Shown: one piece after another, positions 1,596-21,328 of the stretch | Position numbering within the stretch: position 1 is the first letter of the stretch | Layout of the letters: every line of letters begins with the position of its first letter | IMG/VR virus record: IMGVR_UViG_3300017763_000177 | Coordinates: 1-24,437 of that record | Strand: one strand, 5' to 3' | Length of the DNA: 24,437 bases | From: a virus | Program-made: the position numbers and the translations under genes | The notes under the pieces: model-generated | Told to the model about the DNA's origin: nothing | The model's input: the letters and a program-made list of their open reading frames with translations, nothing else | The model's database searches: none

Positions 1596-3495
1596 ATTGA
1601 CTAAATGATACTCCGGCAATGTTTAAACCATTAATTTTTGGAATAGTATCATTTGCCGTTTCATCATAAAGTATTCTCTTTTCGGCACCTCTCATATTAA
1701 ACTGACCAGTCCAATAATTTGTTGTAGTATCATCAGTGTATTGATCTTGATAAGAACTAATAATTTTCGACCCTCTAACCTTCAACCATTCTTTAACTTG
1801 TCTTGATGTTGCTGTTGGATTCATCTCCATATAAAGAGCAATAACACCTGCTGCTACTGGAGATGCAGCAGAAGTGCCATTAAAATAACAATCATAAAAA
1901 CGATTATCATCATATCTTACATAATCTTCATATCTAGTGACACCATTTGTTCCTGGTGCCAATGTCTCATCAGCAGGTGCCCATACATCAATACCAGGCC
2001 CATTATTTGAATAAGTTGCTTTTCTCTCAGAACCATCAAGATTAATATACTCGTCCATGGCACCAACACAAATCACTGGATGAAAATCAGTAGCACTATC
2101 AAAACCAATACCCTGTGGATTCATCCAGTCTCTATGGTTGCATGGACATGCATTGCCGGGAAATTCTGATCTTGGATCTCCGACGTTAAAGTAATCATCA
2201 TCCATATAATTTAAACGATCTGGATCATCAGCACCAACACCCAATCTTTGATTATTGTTTCCTGCAGAAGCAACATAGATAACACCCTCCTCCATCATTT
2301 CATCAGCAGCAGTATTAGTTGAGTTAGATCTTGACGATGAAGACCATGATTTATATGCACCAGTAACCTGATTGTTTAGTCCATCTTTCCAAGCAGTCAC
2401 TTGATTAGTTACAGAGTCATTTCCTGTAAAGGTTCCTGTTGAACCCCTAAACTTATAGGTTACAGTATCAGTAGAACTAAATGCTGCTTGATATCCCCAA
2501 CTCCCATTGATGACAGTGGGATTTTTTCTGCCAGTTTCAGAATTGATTGGTTTGTTGCGATGCCAGATTTTCATATAATCATAATTTCTTTCAATATCAC
2601 CACCAGTATTATCACCAATACCAGGCATATTCCAAATATTTGCTTCAAAAGCAAGACCCATATATTTTCCGGCAGCAAGACCAGCACAAGCAGTTCCGTG
2701 TCCACTAATCAAATTGTTTGTTCCATCTAAATTCTCTCCCATGGCACGTTCAGCAGTATGAGTAAATACTGTATATACCGTACCTTCAGATTGAAAAGCA
2801 GAAGATCGTTGTGAGGCAAAGTTCCACCATCCATGAGCGGATGAAGTTGTTATTCCAATTCTTCCGTCTGCTTTTGTATATGTAAGATTATTTGATGTAA
2901 AATAATTAGGATCCATATAAAATGGTCCATCGAGAACAATATCTCTTACTCTTGATTGACCATTAGCATCCAAAAACTCTGGATGATATTGCAAAACACC
3001 CGAATCATGAATAACGAGATCGACATTTCTTCCAGTTAAACTATAACTAACATCATCACTAATAGCTGGTGGATTACCAACTACGTTTGGCCATGAATCA
3101 CTATTTGCTTCAACACCGACTCTTTTGACTGCCCAATTTGTTCTTTTATCTTCCGCAGAAGTTGGATTAGTTGCCGGTGGTCCATTACCAGCATTAAGAT
3201 CTCTATATATTTTTACATTTTCACGAAACCTTTTGGTTGCTGGTGAAGGTTTAGGATATGATTCTGGATTATCTGTAGGAGACAACTCAATCCACTTAAT
3301 GTGAGGATGTGTAGCAATTTCTGTCGCTTCCTCTTCTGTCAACTCATAAGTTCCTCTCGTAGGACTATGATCTTTGCTATCGGTACACGTTATTTGTCTA
3401 TCAGGAATACCATCCTGATTAGAATCAACGATAAGAGCATTATGAATCTCATTCCAGTATTCGGATCTTTCAACTGATAATGTATACCTTTTCAT
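1591..3495 (-). CDS. Subtilisin-like serine protease (peptidase S8 family)
   Basis: This 634-aa protein has the complete S8 triad in order: Asp164 in VIHDSGV, His266 in SGHGTACAG, and Ser542 in NGTSAASP. Asn413 in VASAGNNN is the expected oxyanion-hole residue. Residues about 1-80 resemble an inhibitory propeptide, with a strand-helix-strand pattern ending near HIKWIELSP, and they include a calcium-loop-like stretch DSNQDGIPD. No signal peptide is seen, so it works inside the infected cell or as part of the virion. The preferred ATG is at 3495. It shares one base with the stop of the fibre gene (TGATG) and has GAGG upstream; a GTG one codon earlier is less likely. Its place between two fibre genes suggests processing of fibres or digestion of host surface protein. 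Family assignment is firm; the target is unknown. Confidence 0.92.
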   Translation of the reverse strand: MKRYTLSVERSEYWNEIHNALIVDSNQDGIPDRQITCTDSKDHSPTRGTYELTEEEATEIATHPHIKWIELSPTDNPESYPKPSPATKRFRENVKIYRDLNAGNGPPATNPTSAEDKRTNWAVKRVGVEANSDSWPNVVGNPPAISDDVSYSLTGRNVDLVIHDSGVLQYHPEFLDANGQSRVRDIVLDGPFYMDPNYFTSNNLTYTKADGRIGITTSSAHGWWNFASQRSSAFQSEGTVYTVFTHTAERAMGENLDGTNNLISGHGTACAGLAAGKYMGLAFEANIWNMPGIGDNTGGDIERNYDYMKIWHRNKPINSETGRKNPTVINGSWGYQAAFSSTDTVTYKFRGSTGTFTGNDSVTNQVTAWKDGLNNQVTGAYKSWSSSSRSNSTNTAADEMMEEGVIYVASAGNNNQRLGVGADDPDRLNYMDDDYFNVGDPRSEFPGNACPCNHRDWMNPQGIGFDSATDFHPVICVGAMDEYINLDGSERKATYSNNGPGIDVWAPADETLAPGTNGVTRYEDYVRYDDNRFYDCYFNGTSAASPVAAGVIALYMEMNPTATSRQVKEWLKVRGSKIISSYQDQYTDDTTTNYWTGQFNMRGAEKRILYDETANDTIPKINGLNIAGVSFSQS

Positions 3496-13442: not shown

Positions 13443-14909
13443 TCAACTACTAATACAATCAATAACTTTAATGATCTCAGATGGTGGAGGAGTGGTTGTC
13501 ATTATTGGTCTCAATATTGCTCCACTAATATTTAGAGTGGGTAATCCATTATATGCAAATGGTTTTGGAGTTGCCCTAACAACTCTTCCATTTTTAATTT
13601 CAAGATCTACTCCTTCAATTTCTCCCTCAACATCATTACCCGGATCTTCAATAATAATTTCTTCAATAAAGAGTGGCAATTCATCAATTTCTGCAGGATA
13701 ATTTGCACCTTCACTTGTCACGACAACGGCAGTGATTTGACCAAAAGTCGGTGATGTTGGAACCTCATCGATAATTGCACGACCATATGCACCATAACCT
13801 TTATTACAACTATCCTGGAACGTTACAATGGGTGGATCAGTATATCCAAGTCCAGGATCAGTCATTTGTGCCCCAACAATACTTCCAAGTTTGAGAACGT
13901 CACCAACAGCATCTTCTGTGTCCACATTATCAACTATATTTCCAAGTAATACATTGCCTGCTCCACCAATACCATCACCACCAAAGAAACTTACGGTAGG
14001 AAGACCGCACTTAGTGACGTTTCCAAAATTACAAGGTTCTAATGATGATGATTCTCCAAGTGGTGATCCAAAAATATTCCACTTACCATATGCTTTCTCA
14101 AAATCATTTGATAAATTGGTAGCACCTTGTGATATTGCTGTTCCACTGAATACTGTGTTCCACATACTATCTTGATCTTCTTCACTTAAGTCCTTAAGTG
14201 GTCCCTGGTCAATCTTAAGTTTACTTGTAGCAGGACAAATTTTTTCATCATCACAACTGAATAAGTTTTGAACTTTTCTTGCTAAACTAATTCCTGTAAG
14301 GAGAAAATCTTTTACATTGAAATTGAAAATTCCACCAGTAAAAGCATTTAAGATGTTACTAATTGGTTCAATTAATGGTCCGGCAATTGAATCAACAATA
14401 TTGACTAAATTGTTAGTGAAGGAACCGACAATTTCTTGTGCGGCACATGCTGTTCCACTAAGAACATTTTTTGCGGCAGCAGTCATAATGTCCGCAAAAG
14501 CATCTTTCGCACCCTTCATTACCTTTGTTGCGGCACAAAATAAACCATCAAACATGGTCTTAATCAAAGGAATCATTGGTGCTTCAACCGCAATAATCTG
14601 AGGTATTTGGAAAAGAAATGGCGGTGCTTGTAAAATTGTCTCTAAAAGTTTTATTGCTTGTGGTATTAGTTCTGCTAATTTATCCTGAAGACCACCTAAC
14701 ATTGCATTAATAAATCCGTTGGCAGTATCACCAACTACATTCACAACATCTTTTATTTCATTTGAAAGATTTAATACTGCAGAGTCAATTCTTCCAATAC
14801 GATCAAAAAAGTTTTCTGTATATGCTTCTATTTTTGCAAGAGTATTATCCTTACAAGGATCTGCCATGAAGACTGTTGTTCCAGTCGTTAATGATGCACA
14901 AGTAGCCAT
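13443..14909 (-). CDS. Cys-rich tail/baseplate structural protein
   Basis: This 488-aa protein has an N-terminal half of amphipathic and hydrophobic helices (residues about 25-215) and a C-terminal beta-rich half. The C-terminal half contains DPGLGYTDPPIVTF and GYGAYGRAII, a Gly/Tyr beta-repeat common in marine phage structural proteins. There are ten cysteines, several in CxxxC-like or close pairs (SCDDEKIC, PCNFGNVTKC), which is unusual for a cytoplasmically assembled tail protein. The start is secure: AGGAGG at 14918-14923 lies eight bases before the ATG. A CATAAATA late-type octamer lies just upstream. It sits between the gp5-like and spike-like genes, so it probably belongs to the central hub or tail tip. 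I cannot match it to a named T4 gene. Confidence 0.7.
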   Translation of the reverse strand: MATCASLTTGTTVFMADPCKDNTLAKIEAYTENFFDRIGRIDSAVLNLSNEIKDVVNVVGDTANGFINAMLGGLQDKLAELIPQAIKLLETILQAPPFLFQIPQIIAVEAPMIPLIKTMFDGLFCAATKVMKGAKDAFADIMTAAAKNVLSGTACAAQEIVGSFTNNLVNIVDSIAGPLIEPISNILNAFTGGIFNFNVKDFLLTGISLARKVQNLFSCDDEKICPATSKLKIDQGPLKDLSEEDQDSMWNTVFSGTAISQGATNLSNDFEKAYGKWNIFGSPLGESSSLEPCNFGNVTKCGLPTVSFFGGDGIGGAGNVLLGNIVDNVDTEDAVGDVLKLGSIVGAQMTDPGLGYTDPPIVTFQDSCNKGYGAYGRAIIDEVPTSPTFGQITAVVVTSEGANYPAEIDELPLFIEEIIIEDPGNDVEGEIEGVDLEIKNGRVVRATPKPFAYNGLPTLNISGAILRPIMTTTPPPSEIIKVIDCISS

Positions 14910-15640: not shown

Positions 15641-16896
15641 TATCCTTTATTTTTTTGAGTATACGCTCCGAATGAATCACGCACAAGAGTTAAAGAGGTA
15701 AAAGATCTCTTTGAATCAAAATGATGGCATAAATCCAAAATCAAATAGTTTCCACTTTGATTTATATCAAAAGGATTTGCTTCTTTTTTGTCCGTAAGTT
15801 TTTCAAATTCACATCGTATTATATCACCGGCAAGTAGATTTAAGTTACATGGCACTGTTATATCTATAATTTGACTCATCAATAAATTATATCTCATTGC
15901 TGCCTTAGCAATATATTCTCTTGGATCATTATTTACAGATGTATCGATACCAGGAGACAGTAGACCAACATCCAATATAAATTGATTTGTCTTAGAAAAA
16001 GAATTATTTGATTTTACTGGTTTGTAATCAATATCTCCACCCAAACTAGTTTGTAACTCTTCGTTCTCAATTCTGAATATGATTTCAGAGAATTCCGCAG
16101 TGCGTGGATTGAAGAATATATTTCTAGATTCATAAACACAAGACTTCATTGCATTCACAATGTTTTGATTTTTTCTGACTGAAAATGAAGCAATTTTGAA
16201 ATTATTATTATCGTTCTCAGTTCCAGATTTTAGTGCACCGGAATAACGATATGTCTCTTTTGGTTCTTGTTTGATTAGATTATCGATTGCCTTATATTTG
16301 AATCCCTCCCTTGTTTGATAAAAGAAAAATCCAGGATTTCCTCTAGGAAAAGTTGACTTTGATCCAAGTTCGATTATTAAGTCAAAAGGTGTATCATTTG
16401 CTCCAATAAAAGAATATGAATTTGCAGTTTTATCAAAATTTGATGACGTTTCGTCTATTGTTGTATTGAATGACTGCTGTAAAATCTTTTTTACATTATC
16501 CGTTATGTTACCATTATACTTTTTAGAGTCGGCAATATTATAATTTTCGAATCCTTCTTTAGAAATCAAACTCATCATTATAGATTCTCTCTGCGATTCT
16601 TGATTCGAATTGATAGCAGCATTATTCAGTAAAGTTCCTTCGAGTTCTCTTATCTTATACTTAATTTCTTCACCACCTGTAATTGGTAAGGTATTATAAA
16701 TTGAACCCTCCGCATTTCTTTTCTCATCCGTAAGAGAAAAACCACTATCAACGAAAGATAAAGTTGCAGTTATGTTTGGAGATAATAAACTCTCAAAGTA
16801 ATTAAATTCAACAGTTTTTCCTGCAAGATTGACTTCCTTGCCATTCTTTGTAATAGTTAGTTTTTCGTAAGTTGAACTACTTGCTTTATTTGCCAT
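15640..16896 (-). CDS. gp27-like baseplate hub protein
   Basis: This 418-aa protein begins MANKASSSTYEKLTITKNG. It resembles the hub family of T4 gp27, VgrG N-terminus and phage Mu gp44 in general form. An early strand-rich part (residues about 10-60) reads LSPNITATLSFVDSG. A middle part has a helix (VKKILQQSF), the segment PFDLIIELGS, and then FFFYQTREGFKYKAIDNLI, typical of the second barrel of this fold. A C-terminal barrel includes LLAGDIIRCEFE and ends in LVRDSFG. Length is close to T4 gp27 (391). Its ATG shares a base with the upstream stop (GGATAATG), and its own stop overlaps the gp5-like ATG, matching the physical gp27-gp5 partnership. Assignment rests on fold-like pattern and context. 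Confidence 0.6.
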   Translation of the reverse strand: MANKASSSTYEKLTITKNGKEVNLAGKTVEFNYFESLLSPNITATLSFVDSGFSLTDEKRNAEGSIYNTLPITGGEEIKYKIRELEGTLLNNAAINSNQESQRESIMMSLISKEGFENYNIADSKKYNGNITDNVKKILQQSFNTTIDETSSNFDKTANSYSFIGANDTPFDLIIELGSKSTFPRGNPGFFFYQTREGFKYKAIDNLIKQEPKETYRYSGALKSGTENDNNNFKIASFSVRKNQNIVNAMKSCVYESRNIFFNPRTAEFSEIIFRIENEELQTSLGGDIDYKPVKSNNSFSKTNQFILDVGLLSPGIDTSVNNDPREYIAKAAMRYNLLMSQIIDITVPCNLNLLAGDIIRCEFEKLTDKKEANPFDINQSGNYLILDLCHHFDSKRSFTSLTLVRDSFGAYTQKNKG

Positions 16897-18302
16897 TATC
16901 CTACAATTACTTTTTGTTTTGCTATAATAATAGTCTGTCCACCCTCTTCATCCGTTGATTGATTTATCGTAGATATCTGATTAGATTTTGTTCTATTTTC
17001 TGGATTTGATAGTGAAGCTCTGACATCTCCTGAACCCTGTGTATTTGTTGATAAATTCGCTTTAGTCATTTTACTCGCACCTCTTCCGGAACCCAATCTA
17101 ATTCCAGCAAACCATGATGTTCCACCAGAAGAATGCCAATGTCTACGATAATGAAAACCATTAGTTGTGTTATGATCAAATTGATGCTTCAAACCATCAT
17201 CAGCAGCAATGCCAACGTGAGTAATAGCACCTTTATTTAATACTCCACCAAGGTCTCTATCTGCTCTCCAGAGTATAATATCCCCTGCTTTAATATTAGA
17301 TTTAGTTTTTATAACCTGACCCATGTCAGTTCCACCAAATGAAGCCGCAAATGATGGTGCGTTATATGCAATACCCTGTGGTGTATCTAAGTCACCTAGT
17401 AGAGTTCTGACATTTGCCATCGGATGACCTGCTTTTCTCAATGCTGCCCTCGTAGTATTTGCACATTGATCTTCAGTTCCCTTTCCCATTCCAATTATTT
17501 GTCTCGCACCCTCTAATATTCCACCTGATAGAGGAACGGGAGCATCTTCTCTACCATCACCGATACCAGATATATCAGTTGCTCCACCTCCACTCCCACT
17601 AGAATCAGTGGATCCACTTTCATATTTTTTTCTCTCTGCACTAGTGAATTGTTTTTCTGTAAACTCACCAGTCTCTGTGTTTAGAACACCTTCCTTTCCA
17701 TCTTGCTTTGCAAGAACCTTTTTCTTTCCACCAGCTGCTCCTCTTACCAAATCAATAGCAGGTTTCAGTAACTTAATTATATTTTTCAATGGTCCTGTTT
17801 TTTCTGCTAATTGATCAATTAGTCCACCATCACCACTTATTTGACTTAAAGTATCATCTACTCTTTTTCTATCAACATCATATTTCTTCTTATCAAAGTC
17901 ACCTTGGATGAATCCTATTATTAGATTAAAGCCACTTTGAATGGGGGTAACAAAATTAACAATAGAATCTATAACACCTTTTACCGTTTTCAATATTTGT
18001 GGAAGAGAATTGACTAATACTCCGGTTAGTATGAATGAACCAAATCCAAGAATTTTATCAAAAATACTCCCACCAGTCGATGCTATTGTATTTCCTACAT
18101 CTCCTAAACCATAATCTTGTTTAGTTTCTCTTCTTTTTTCTACTTGCTTTTCTTCCATTTCCTGCTTTCTTCTCTTCTCTTGTCTTGAGATTAGAGCAGA
18201 ATTTTTTTTCTTCAATCCAATGTAAGTATTATTAGAGTTCTTGAGAAAACTGCTAATATTAGTTACATTTATTTTTAGTTGTTTTACTTGTGTTGCTTCC
18301 AT
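16896..18302 (-). CDS. Tape-measure-like tail protein with CHAP/NlpC-type hydrolase domain
   Basis: Residues about 30-62 of this 468-aa protein form a Lys/Arg/Glu-rich coiled coil. Residues 75-135 are hydrophobic helices (LGFGSFILTGVLVNSL), as in tape-measure or membrane-inserting tail proteins. Residues about 265-405 look like a CHAP or NlpC/P60-type cysteine peptidase: Cys280 in EDQCANTTRAALRKAG, AGDIILWR before the core strand, and His362 in ITHVGIAADDG. Asp376 or a nearby His may complete the triad. Such domains cut peptidoglycan peptides, so this would be the tail-borne cell-wall hydrolase. The ORF is coupled to the gp27-like gene (TAATG) and starts three bases after the second tape-measure gene. 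The catalytic-domain call is fairly strong; the third catalytic residue is uncertain. Confidence 0.7.
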   Translation of the reverse strand: MEATQVKQLKINVTNISSFLKNSNNTYIGLKKKNSALISRQEKRRKQEMEEKQVEKRRETKQDYGLGDVGNTIASTGGSIFDKILGFGSFILTGVLVNSLPQILKTVKGVIDSIVNFVTPIQSGFNLIIGFIQGDFDKKKYDVDRKRVDDTLSQISGDGGLIDQLAEKTGPLKNIIKLLKPAIDLVRGAAGGKKKVLAKQDGKEGVLNTETGEFTEKQFTSAERKKYESGSTDSSGSGGGATDISGIGDGREDAPVPLSGGILEGARQIIGMGKGTEDQCANTTRAALRKAGHPMANVRTLLGDLDTPQGIAYNAPSFAASFGGTDMGQVIKTKSNIKAGDIILWRADRDLGGVLNKGAITHVGIAADDGLKHQFDHNTTNGFHYRRHWHSSGGTSWFAGIRLGSGRGASKMTKANLSTNTQGSGDVRASLSNPENRTKSNQISTINQSTDEEGGQTIIIAKQKVIVG

Positions 18303-18305
18303 ATT

Positions 18306-19775
18306 TTACACAGATATTCCATACATTTCTGGTGTTTTACTTCTCCACATATCAGCAACATTTGTTGAAGGTATTTTTGGAATAGGTGGTTCTGCTGGTC
18401 TTGCCGGAGGTGATTTTTCACTATTTAGCATTTGAGGTGGCAAATCCATAGTTACAATATTAGTTTTTTTAGTCTTATTCGGGGTTATATTTCTAAGTAA
18501 ATTTTTTGTTTTTGGATTACTAATAATATTTCCACCTTTTTCAAATACCCTGAGTTCCGGTCCTTCTTCACCCACAAGATAAGGTGTTCCTGCACTTATA
18601 GGACCACCCATTTTTCTTGCTTCAACTGTAGTTGGAGTTAGAGTATTTGATATTTTTGCTTTGTAATCCTCCCTAACTTCCCTATCAACTTTCCTTCTTG
18701 CCAATTCATTAGGGTTGGCACCCATTTTTCTTCTTGCACTACCTGATGGTGTTGGTATAATTTCTAACTTACTTTGCTTATCTTTTATTTCTTCATTCAT
18801 TTGATTTTTGAGTGCATATAATGCTTCTCTTTTTTTCTTCACTTCTTGGAATATTTTTTCTTGATCTTCGTCTCTACCCGTAATTCCTTTTTTAGTTGCT
18901 GCTCTACCTCTTCCTCTCGCAGTTCTTCCATCCTTTCCCATTCCAGCGTCTGCTAACTGCTGGTCTAATTGACTATGAGCAATACTATAATCTTCACCAC
19001 CAGTCACTAAATTTCGCGCTTTTTTTATCAAAAATTCTCCACCCTTATAAATTAATATTCCCGCACCAATTGCCAATATAGCCTTTAAAAATAACGGATT
19101 TAACAATAATCCCTTGAGTAGAGGCAATCCTTTCAGAAGTAATCCGACTGCTCCACCAATAAGTTTAACTATCATGGAAATGGGACCAATCAATTTGAGA
19201 ACAACAACGGCACCCAAAGCACCAAGAACCCATTTATAATGTTCTTTTATAAAATCAAACCATCCCATTAATTTATTTTTATTCGCATCATCAGATAACC
19301 AATTAAATACAGTATTAGCAGCAATTCCTGCTCCGATTAATGCAATAAATTCTTTAATTTTATCAAATGCACTTTTTACAGGAGCAAGGACTTTATTAGC
19401 TCCAGATTTAACAATACTACCTATCTTCCTGACACTTTCTATTGAACCTTCTTTAAGAGCAAATTTTCTCTTAGATTTTTCTCTTTTTAATGCTTTATTT
19501 TTTTCATTCTCATCAGCAATTCTCATTGCAAAATCCAGAGCAAGTTGCTTTTGAATTTCTATAAGAATTGTATTTGTTTCTAATAATGTATTTTCTATTG
19601 ATGATTGTGCTTCTAATGCAGGAGAACTTGCTGATCCTGTACTTCTAATTTTTATTTTACTTACTTTTAATTTTGGAGTAGCCTTAGAAATTTTTGATGC
19701 ACCAGAAGACAAAGGAGAGGATATATTTCCCTTCCCTATCTTTGGTGCCGTAAAATTTTGACTACTAAATGCCAT
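18306..19775 (-). CDS. Tape measure protein (gp29-like role)
   Basis: This 489-aa protein has an N-terminal coiled coil (residues about 58-108, ending in KREKSKRK). It is followed by helices and a long hydrophobic stretch (about 182-250, including VLGALGAVVVLKLIG and AILAIGAGILIYKGG). A basic low-complexity segment and a second coiled coil (about 303-340) follow. Near the C terminus, residues 390-416 carry GGPISAGTPYLVGEEGPEL, a signature often found at the end of tape measures. Its position directly after the gp26-like gene and the 59-aa ORF is the usual place for a tape measure behind the tail-assembly chaperones. It is shorter than T4 gp29 (590). The ATG lies inside the end of the 59-aa ORF, so translation is coupled. 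Membrane insertion during DNA ejection is a plausible use of the hydrophobic region. Confidence 0.7.
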   Translation of the reverse strand: MAFSSQNFTAPKIGKGNISSPLSSGASKISKATPKLKVSKIKIRSTGSASSPALEAQSSIENTLLETNTILIEIQKQLALDFAMRIADENEKNKALKREKSKRKFALKEGSIESVRKIGSIVKSGANKVLAPVKSAFDKIKEFIALIGAGIAANTVFNWLSDDANKNKLMGWFDFIKEHYKWVLGALGAVVVLKLIGPISMIVKLIGGAVGLLLKGLPLLKGLLLNPLFLKAILAIGAGILIYKGGEFLIKKARNLVTGGEDYSIAHSQLDQQLADAGMGKDGRTARGRGRAATKKGITGRDEDQEKIFQEVKKKREALYALKNQMNEEIKDKQSKLEIIPTPSGSARRKMGANPNELARRKVDREVREDYKAKISNTLTPTTVEARKMGGPISAGTPYLVGEEGPELRVFEKGGNIISNPKTKNLLRNITPNKTKKTNIVTMDLPPQMLNSEKSPPARPAEPPIPKIPSTNVADMWRSKTPEMYGISV

Positions 19776-19944
19776 TCTGTTGCTGTGCCTTTAGGTTTTC
19801 TTCTTCAATGTATTGTTCAAGAAGAGCAAGATAAATCTCTTTCTCCCACGGAATCATATTTTCTATCTCTGTTAATGAGTATTTATGATGCTGAATCAAT
19901 GCAAAATTAATCTTATAGTATGACTCAAGATTCGTATGAGCCAT
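19765..19944 (-). CDS. 59-aa ORF, probable -1 frameshift extension of the gp26-like protein (tail-assembly chaperone)
   Basis: This short ORF encodes MAHTNLESYYKINF at its start and EIENMIPWEKEIYLALLEQY in its middle, then an acidic tail EEEN. The pattern of a short helix followed by a Pro-Trp-Glu-containing helix resembles the T part of G/GT tail-assembly chaperones. Its own ATG lacks a well-placed ribosome binding site; AGG lies only two bases before it. It lies in the -1 frame relative to the gp26-like gene, and that frame is open from the slippery heptamer onward, adding Gln-Leu-Gly before the Met. A frameshift product would be 301 aa (239 + 3 + 59). The TAG stop lies inside the tape-measure start region. 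The ORF itself is certain; expression as a fusion is inference. Confidence 0.7.
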   Translation of the reverse strand: MAHTNLESYYKINFALIQHHKYSLTEIENMIPWEKEIYLALLEQYIEEENLKAQQQNGI

Positions 19945-19946
19945 AC
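19922..19946 (-). promoter_or_regulatory. Candidate frameshift-stimulating hairpins downstream of the slippery site
   Basis: Starting six bases after the slippery heptamer, GTATG (19946-19942) can pair with CATAC (19938-19934) around a GCT loop. An alternative six-pair stem (one G-U) joins GGCTCA (19942-19937) and TGAGTC (19927-19922) around a nine-base loop. Both are small, but the spacing is what stimulators of -1 frameshifting usually have. Confidence 0.4.
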
Positions 19947-20669
19947 CTAACTGAAAAAACTTGCTAATCCTTCAAGAACAACTTCAGACTCGACACCAGT
20001 CTCTGGATTCTTTACAGAAATTGTATGAGACAATTTTGGCATTGTAACAAAGAAAGATTCAATCTGCTTAAATTGTTTACTATTCAGTTGATCTACAAAA
20101 TCAGTCAATTCCTTTTTAGAGCAATCAGAAGCATTCCAACTCTCTTCCTTATCATAGACCATATCAATACATGAAGTAATCATATTCAGTGATTGATTAA
20201 CATCACTGATTTCTCCACCTACCTCAAAATTACTATCAATGAATTGATCAAATGAAGGATACTTCAACTTCATTGAGTATGTATCATCTAACTTAATAAT
20301 ATTTTTGTGATCCTTATTCTTCTTAACTTTGATTGAATCAATTTCAATTTCCATTTCAACTGTTGTTTCATTATCATCAGGGCAGGTGATATTTACTTCT
20401 ACAGTTTCCCCGACAGATTTTGAACGAACATTTAAGAAAAGATACTCAATGTCAAAAGTTGCAAGGTTTTGAACCTTAACTCCTCTCGTTATAATACAAT
20501 CATTGAGAATCTGAACAATACCATTAGAAATTTGTTTTGAATCTTCAGATTCCAATGCCATCAATAGAATTTTTTCTTCCTTAACCAAGAAAGGACGATA
20601 CTTTATTTTCTTTCCAGTTGATGGTAATTCCAACTCATAAATTGGAGTATTTATTTTTGGTAAAGGCAT
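19947..20669 (-). CDS. 26: gp26-like baseplate hub / tail-assembly chaperone-type protein
   Basis: This 240-aa protein begins MPLPKINTPIYELELPSTGK and continues KYRPFLVKEEKILLMALES. That pattern, with NLATFDIEYLFLNVRSKSVGE and a single CPDDNE segment, is characteristic of the T4 gp26-type baseplate protein family (Pfam T4 bacteriophage base plate protein). In T4, gp26 is needed for hub assembly. The C terminus ends ASFFS just after a T TTT TTC heptamer, and the next ORF lies in the -1 frame, so the protein may be the G-like member of a G/GT chaperone pair. A late-type AATAAATA octamer precedes it by 26 bases. The family is fairly sure; I cannot exclude that it equates to gp51 and not gp26. 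Confidence 0.72.
   Translation of the reverse strand: MPLPKINTPIYELELPSTGKKIKYRPFLVKEEKILLMALESEDSKQISNGIVQILNDCIITRGVKVQNLATFDIEYLFLNVRSKSVGETVEVNITCPDDNETTVEMEIEIDSIKVKKNKDHKNIIKLDDTYSMKLKYPSFDQFIDSNFEVGGEISDVNQSLNMITSCIDMVYDKEESWNASDCSKKELTDFVDQLNSKQFKQIESFFVTMPKLSHTISVKNPETGVESEVVLEGLASFFS
19953..19959 (-). promoter_or_regulatory. Canonical -1 slippery heptamer T TTT TTC
   Basis: In the zero frame the codons are AGT TTT TTC AGT TAG, which gives the X XXY YYZ form T TTT TTC two codons before the stop. After a -1 slip the frame reads CAG TTA GGT ATG GCT and is open through the 59-aa ORF. This is the classic layout of programmed frameshifting in tail-assembly chaperone genes. Confidence 0.7.
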
Positions 20670-20710: not shown

Positions 20711-21328
20711 TCAGACTTTTACAACGTATCTATCATAGTTAAATGATACATTCACTTTTAACAAATCAGCAGCACCATATGAAACAGGTATTGATGTCAT
20801 CGATTTTGGAAAAGCATTATAAAACTGATAAGTTATTTTTCTGTTTGGATTTACTTCAATATCTTTTTCAAATTTTGTAATGTGCATCGTATCACACTTA
20901 TAAGTATCAGGATATTGAAATCTTCTATAGTAATTACGAGTATTTGGATTATCAGTACCAGCAGATGAAATGAAGTCCATCCATCCTTCAAACACTTTCA
21001 AATTATTATAATCATTATCAACATAAAAGGTAAAATCAATATCAGTATATAATCTCGTATGTGCAAATTCTTGGGGGATACCCATGAAGTCACCCTTTAC
21101 TTCGGCAGTTGCAAAAGAAGTTGTGGGAAGAGATGCTTCAGAACATAAAAGACCTGTTTTTCTACAAATAAAATTTGCTGCATCAGGAACGTTAAATTTT
21201 CTTATGTGTTTCAATACAGAATCATTTAAGGTCGAAAAACTTACTTCGTATTGATTTGATAATGCTATTCTACCGAATATTTCTTGAGCATTCCTCATAG
21301 GAATAGCTTTTGGTCTCGGACTTGCCAC
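20711..21328 (-). CDS. Tail-tube-fold protein (gp19/gp54-like)
   Basis: This 205-aa protein contains GLLCSEASLPTTSFATAEVKG, then EFAHTRLYTDIDFTFYVDND, a helix FEGWMDFISSAG, and FEKDIEVNPNRKITYQFYNAFP. It ends in a strand pair finishing NVSFNYDRYVV. This order of strands around one helix is that of T4 gp19 tail tube and its baseplate paralogues gp48 and gp54. Being next to the hub genes and opposite gp48/gp53, a tube-initiator role like gp54 is likely, but it could also be a tube subunit. The start is GTG at 21328, with TAGG about eight bases upstream; an ATG at codon 11 is the alternative. A TCTAAATA promoter lies 33 bases upstream. It leads the whole minus-strand tail cluster. Confidence 0.65.
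   Translation of the reverse strand: MASPRPKAIPMRNAQEIFGRIALSNQYEVSFSTLNDSVLKHIRKFNVPDAANFICRKTGLLCSEASLPTTSFATAEVKGDFMGIPQEFAHTRLYTDIDFTFYVDNDYNNLKVFEGWMDFISSAGTDNPNTRNYYRRFQYPDTYKCDTMHITKFEKDIEVNPNRKITYQFYNAFPKSMTSIPVSYGAADLLKVNVSFNYDRYVVKV

Follow-up and report, generated by a model that had tools for sequence, protein, structure and literature searches.

G-T frameshifting is a widely conserved feature of long-tailed phages, "except T4", and lambda makes its two products at a ratio of 30:1 (PMC5009743). For T4-like phages, poly-T slippery sequences are known in TAC-N genes (as given in PMC12846349, citing Vladimirov, Gautam and Davidson 2022, Virology 566:9-15), and some members are described as carrying separate short and fused chaperone genes (as given in PMC10885494, citing Vladimirov et al. 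2022). Since poly-T sites in T4-like chaperone genes have already been reported, according to these two articles, we do not present the frameshift mechanism itself as new. Here we analysed a 24,437-base stretch of viral DNA (hereafter the window), and we hold with high confidence that it encodes a TAC-N (240 aa, gp26) and a TAC-NC (301 aa, a gp26-51 fusion) by -1 frameshifting in a T4-like marine phage.

The gp26-like gene lies on the minus strand (20669..19947, 240 aa) and is followed by a 59-aa ORF in the -1 frame (19944..19765) and then by a 489-aa gene (19775..18306). The gp26-like protein matched 805 phage records; its counterparts in Marine virus AG-345-L05 and Prochlorococcus phage P-SSM2, both listed under Kyanoviridae, share 76% and 61% identity with it, respectively. 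The features of the locus are as follows.

20711..21328, minus strand: tail-tube-like protein, directly upstream of the gp26-like gene (Pfam Phage_TTP_2, E 7e-24; phrog_45 tail tube, E 1e-35).
19947..20669, minus strand: gp26-like gene, putative short tail-assembly chaperone form (TAC-N), zero frame (Pfam T4_baseplate PF12322, E 3e-74; PHROG phrog_150, E 1.5e-81).
19968..19973, minus strand: Shine-Dalgarno (SD)-like GAAGGA, with its core GAAGG 9 nt upstream of the heptamer; a proposed stimulator, not an initiation site.
19953..19959, minus strand: slippery heptamer T TTT TTC, invariant in 76/76 loci, with a poly-U run in phase in 119/119 loci.
19917..19947, minus strand: proposed stimulatory hairpin (5' arm 19947-19937, loop 19936-19928, 3' arm 19927-19917).
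19765..19952, minus strand: -1 frame extension, QLG plus the 59-aa ORF (TAC-C domain, gp51 C-terminal domain; phrog_634, E 1e-27; dN/dS about 0.09).
18306..19775, minus strand: 489-aa gene immediately downstream, probably encoding the tape measure (PHROG tape-measure C-terminal motif, E 1.9e-9 and 8.7e-4).

The gene order, from tube-like protein through TAC-N and TAC-C to the probable tape measure, is the placement between tube and tape measure that is expected of a G/GT-type pair. The initial annotation had named the 489-aa gene as the tape measure. The C-terminal motif makes this assignment probable, and the gene also has hydrophobic segments and homologues with varied length and conserved ends (genes at this position among the compared loci range from 228 to 865 aa). 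The assignment is nevertheless not proven, because a second gene beyond it (13443-14909) also matches tape-measure profiles. When the probable tape measure of the window was compared by BLASTP with P-SSM2, S-CAM9 and Cr30, there was no match, and homologues were found among closer loci only. The gene that follows (468 aa, 16896..18302) had no confident family match; by eye, its stretch GDIILW...THVGIA resembles an NlpC/P60 or CHAP amidase.

At its 3' end the gp26-like gene reads AGT TTT TTC AGT TAG, as the initial annotation had it, placing the heptamer TTTTTTC (19959..19953) in the X XXY YYZ phase 10 nt before the stop. The -1 frame past the heptamer continues through CAG TTA GGT (Q-L-G) into the 59-aa ORF and is open for 62 codons; translation confirmed the earlier prediction of a 301-aa fusion, joined after Phe239 (239 + 62 aa). 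The same reading had called the 59-aa ORF uncalled, which holds for the raw window only, since the ORF matches phrog_634 (gp51, "baseplate hub assembly catalyst") and is a separate gene in many cyanophage records. Across the 14 minus-strand genes that were screened, 43 heptamers of the slippery type lie in frame; the gp26 site alone was followed by at least 30 codons in the -1 frame, and the combination of a heptamer with an open -1 frame at the end of gp26 is far beyond chance.

We compared 80 IMG/VR loci near the window together with cyanophage records and distant T4-like loci. A poly-U heptamer in the same X XXY YYZ phase was present in every locus with a usable site (119/119), reaching very distant phages: 95 carried TTTTTTC, 20 TTTTTTT, 3 TTTTTTG and 1 TTTTTTA. 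This count leaves out eight loci, of which three are truncated (L062, L121, L122), two are duplicates (L094, L123), one is T4 with its two-gene arrangement (L005) and two are the exceptions described below (L089, L090). The -1 frame was open in 119/119 loci as well, with a length of 56-65 codons in the 115 complete loci, and the conservation proposed for the heptamer and frame is thereby borne out. Outside the T4 two-gene arrangement, phage IME-SM1 was the only gp26 homologue among those examined to have the small ORF in another frame.

Conservation at the site extends to synonymous positions. T TTT TTC was kept in 76/76 dereplicated cyanophage-like loci, with no third-position change in three successive codons, compared with a parsimony mean of 17.3 third-position changes per column over the same 76 loci. 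The codon before TTT TTC varied among Ser, Ala, Asn and Asp (by parsimony, 18 changes at position 1 and 16 at position 2) and always ended in T, while TTC was used in 76/76 loci at the heptamer against a background TTC use of 21%. The extension itself is under purifying selection, with a median pairwise dN/dS of about 0.09 and 5.3, 0.8 and 14.8 changes per codon at positions 1, 2 and 3. Further into the extension, the third positions of CAT AAA (codons +24 and +25 past the heptamer; window 19887-19882, minus strand) were unchanged in 76/76 loci while their neighbours varied; these codons may belong to another RNA signal or simply reflect codon bias.

Upstream of the heptamer we found an element that the initial annotation had not listed, a GAAGGA ending 8-9 nt before the window's heptamer. 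An SD-like core (GGAGG, GAGGG, GAAGG or AGAGG) was present 9-10 nt before the heptamer in 76/76 loci, and predicted pairing with the 16S 3' end peaked with its centre at -10 to -16 and nowhere else near the site. Codon choice followed the motif: its Glu codon was GAG in 61/76 loci against 27% elsewhere (p 7e-22), and the preceding Leu codon was TTG or CTG in 50/67 against 26% (NTG bias, p 1e-16). Because of the relatedness among loci, p values computed as if each locus were independent are overstated, and counts made on the tree are safer. The SD-like motif before the heptamer is under codon-level selection. The spacing between SD and heptamer in E. coli dnaX matches that in the window.

Downstream, the window forms an 11-bp hairpin (-14.7 kcal/mol, z = -3.96) that starts 5 nt after the heptamer and 11 nt from the P-site codon's first base; stems of this kind are reported to be active at 11-12 nt from that codon (PMC7282821). 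Hairpins beginning 6-10 bases downstream had been proposed, and this agrees with a start at 6 nt if the terminal G-U pair is left out but not with the 5 nt obtained when it is included. RNAalifold, run on the alignment of the 76 sequences, gave no consensus pair, because about one quarter of the loci carry different stems, and after this null result we used counts on the named structure and per-sequence codon-preserving tests. The named pairs were formed in 78.8% of cells, compared with 25-42% when the structure was slid, and changes on both sides of a pair occurred in 14 cells against 4.5 in shuffles. A weaker piece of evidence is the number of pairs with both sides changed (4), which 40/500 shuffles also reached. 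Relative to codon-preserving redesigns encoding an identical peptide, z averaged -3.97 over the 76 loci, with 83% of loci below -2, while gp26 control windows averaged -0.12. The hairpin is under selection, with compensatory changes. Some relatives (L030, L068, L126, L004) place a different stem at the same position, and 12-17% of the cyanophage set has only a weak hairpin.

Most of the distant clades have no clear hairpin, and several have longer U runs. Runs of 8 U in some distant relatives (among L099-L120) speak for the alternative that fusion mRNAs arise from transcriptional slippage at the U run rather than from ribosomal frameshifting. For the window we regard this explanation as very improbable: its clade keeps exactly six U followed by an invariant C in the ribosomal X XXY YYZ phase, flanked by an SD and a hairpin at spacings known for ribosomal frameshifting. 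Together, the upstream SD, the heptamer and the downstream hairpin make up a dnaX-type cassette.

The small ORF might instead be an independent gene (gp51, hub assembly catalyst) whose translation starts at the ATG at 19944, through reinitiation or coupling once gp26 has terminated, with the heptamer incidental. An ATG does lie soon after the stop in 62/76 relatives, and GenBank records annotate the small ORF separately. At that position, however, the other 14/76 dereplicated cyanophage loci have CTG, CTA, CTC or another non-start codon, as do several distant lineages. In the window the ATG sits in the 5' arm of the 11-bp hairpin, and the SD-like motif is 23 nt away, too far to serve as its initiation site. 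Nor does independent initiation account for heptamer third positions that never change, or for T4 gp51, in which the same domain is joined in frame to a gp26-like part. More broadly, 40 loci, some of them near-identical, lack any ATG, GTG or TTG within 30 nt of the heptamer start; in 22 of these, among them the close relatives L030, L033 and L042, the stretch without a start codon extends to 60 nt. With no usable start for the small ORF in so many relatives, only frameshifting can express it there. Independent initiation is implausible or impossible in many such relatives, and we give the independent-gene explanation very little credence. In S-SSM4 (L139, 3220-3408) an extension lacking an early start is entirely unannotated, and in RN05-S (L138, 3217-3396) it is annotated from a start that is too late.

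Two records depart from the pattern beyond the T4-type phages, which have two genes and no slippery site. IME-SM1 (L090, KR560069) was dropped as a counterexample: it reads five T's at 3217-3221, versus six read directly in Moby (L137), and the corresponding span is one base longer in all 14 of its close relatives. As given, the record shifts the site into an unusual +1 layout and misplaces the end of the gene, and its missing T is likely a record error or a rare variant. Vibrio phage D506 (L089) keeps the -1 frame with a weaker site, CTTTTC, in place of a poly-U heptamer, and has a TAATG overlap at the gp26 stop (3170-3172); the frameshift may have given way to reinitiation or another route in this lineage.

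At the level of sequence profiles, the predicted fusion aligned end to end with T4 gp51 (hhalign, 236 columns, 99.4%, E 3.8e-21), each half also aligning separately. The phrog_150 profile spans the fusion (1-286), T4 gp51 (3-248) and T4 gp26 (5-208), and both domains show profile homology to the T4-like gp26/gp51 family (phrog_150, phrog_634). By sequence, the short and extended forms with a common N-terminal domain are present. T4 gp26 is accordingly the counterpart of the short form, and the long form has its counterpart in T4 gp51, where it is encoded as one in-frame gene. Together with the conservation of heptamer and -1 frame, the gp51 match supports the earlier proposal that the gp26-like protein and its 301-aa fusion are a G/GT-type chaperone pair.

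The two forms could also be real and yet serve in baseplate hub assembly, in a role different from that of a G/GT-type chaperone. T4 genetics named gp26 and gp51 hub proteins, and the AF2 model of gp26 (pLDDT 86.5) had BFVD matches mainly to baseplate-hub/gp26-like proteins. No significant fold match to solved chaperones was obtained: against the PDB, the gp26 model gave its highest probabilities (0.38-0.57) with the HK97 chaperone 2ob9 and with 3fgx at E 1.7-3.9, and a Foldseek search of the PDB with T4 gp51 returned nothing usable. The gene order and the two-form design speak against a hub role, as does the published identification of T4-like chaperones, insofar as it is cited in PMC10885494 and PMC12846349. 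We therefore consider a purely hub-related function improbable and favour the chaperone pair.

That ribosomes shift here, how often they do so, and that the products act as chaperones are inferences. A ribosome on the gp26 mRNA would arrive at T TTT TTC with tRNA-Phe in both sites, paired with TTT in the P site and with TTC in the A site, and would be slowed there by pairing of the internal SD with 16S rRNA behind it and by the 11-bp hairpin at the mRNA entrance. A fraction of ribosomes would re-pair one base back, on TTT TTT, and continue in the -1 frame, and the remainder would stop one codon later. By analogy with lambda, the tape measure protein would be coated by the short form, and tail tube subunits would be brought in by the long form; both forms would depart before tail completion. 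Marine T4-like phages with the full dnaX-type cassette might make the long form at tens of percent, far above lambda, although we offer this only tentatively and think it somewhat doubtful. If so, chaperone stoichiometry would differ, and the difference would have been kept in T4 by the split into genes 26 and 51.

Annotating gp26-51 as a single frameshifted chaperone corrects the records of this cyanophage group, in which the C-terminal domain is given as a separate gene, from a late start or not at all, and explains T4 gp51 as the same fusion encoded in frame. The relatives also offer a natural series, from strong to weak stimulators, for how phages set the ratio of the two forms. Our literature search found no report of the SD-plus-hairpin cassette, the start-less relatives or tree-based counts for this site, and these are the additions of the present analysis.

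Among described systems, the T4-like tail-assembly chaperones of Vladimirov et al. (2022), as represented in the articles citing them, share the phage group, gene role and poly-T site with the window. The chaperone locus of Vandenendeviridae and Andersonviridae belongs to different phage families, and the account in PMC12846349 reports no SD or hairpin in the portion that describes it. T4 has two diverged genes, gp26 and gp51, in opposite orientation and without a frameshift site. Lambda gpG/gpGT is alike in design, with two forms made by a -1 frameshift near the end of the short gene and adjoining the tape measure gene; its heptamer differs from the window's, and homology is not demonstrable from sequence. 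E. coli dnaX resembles the window in its upstream SD, slippery heptamer and downstream stem of about 10-11 bp, but it is another gene, with an A-run where the window has a U-run, and in the window the shifted product is the longer form. Set beside these systems, the gp26 site appears as a clear case of a known phage mechanism in which the slip-promoting signals are unusually complete.
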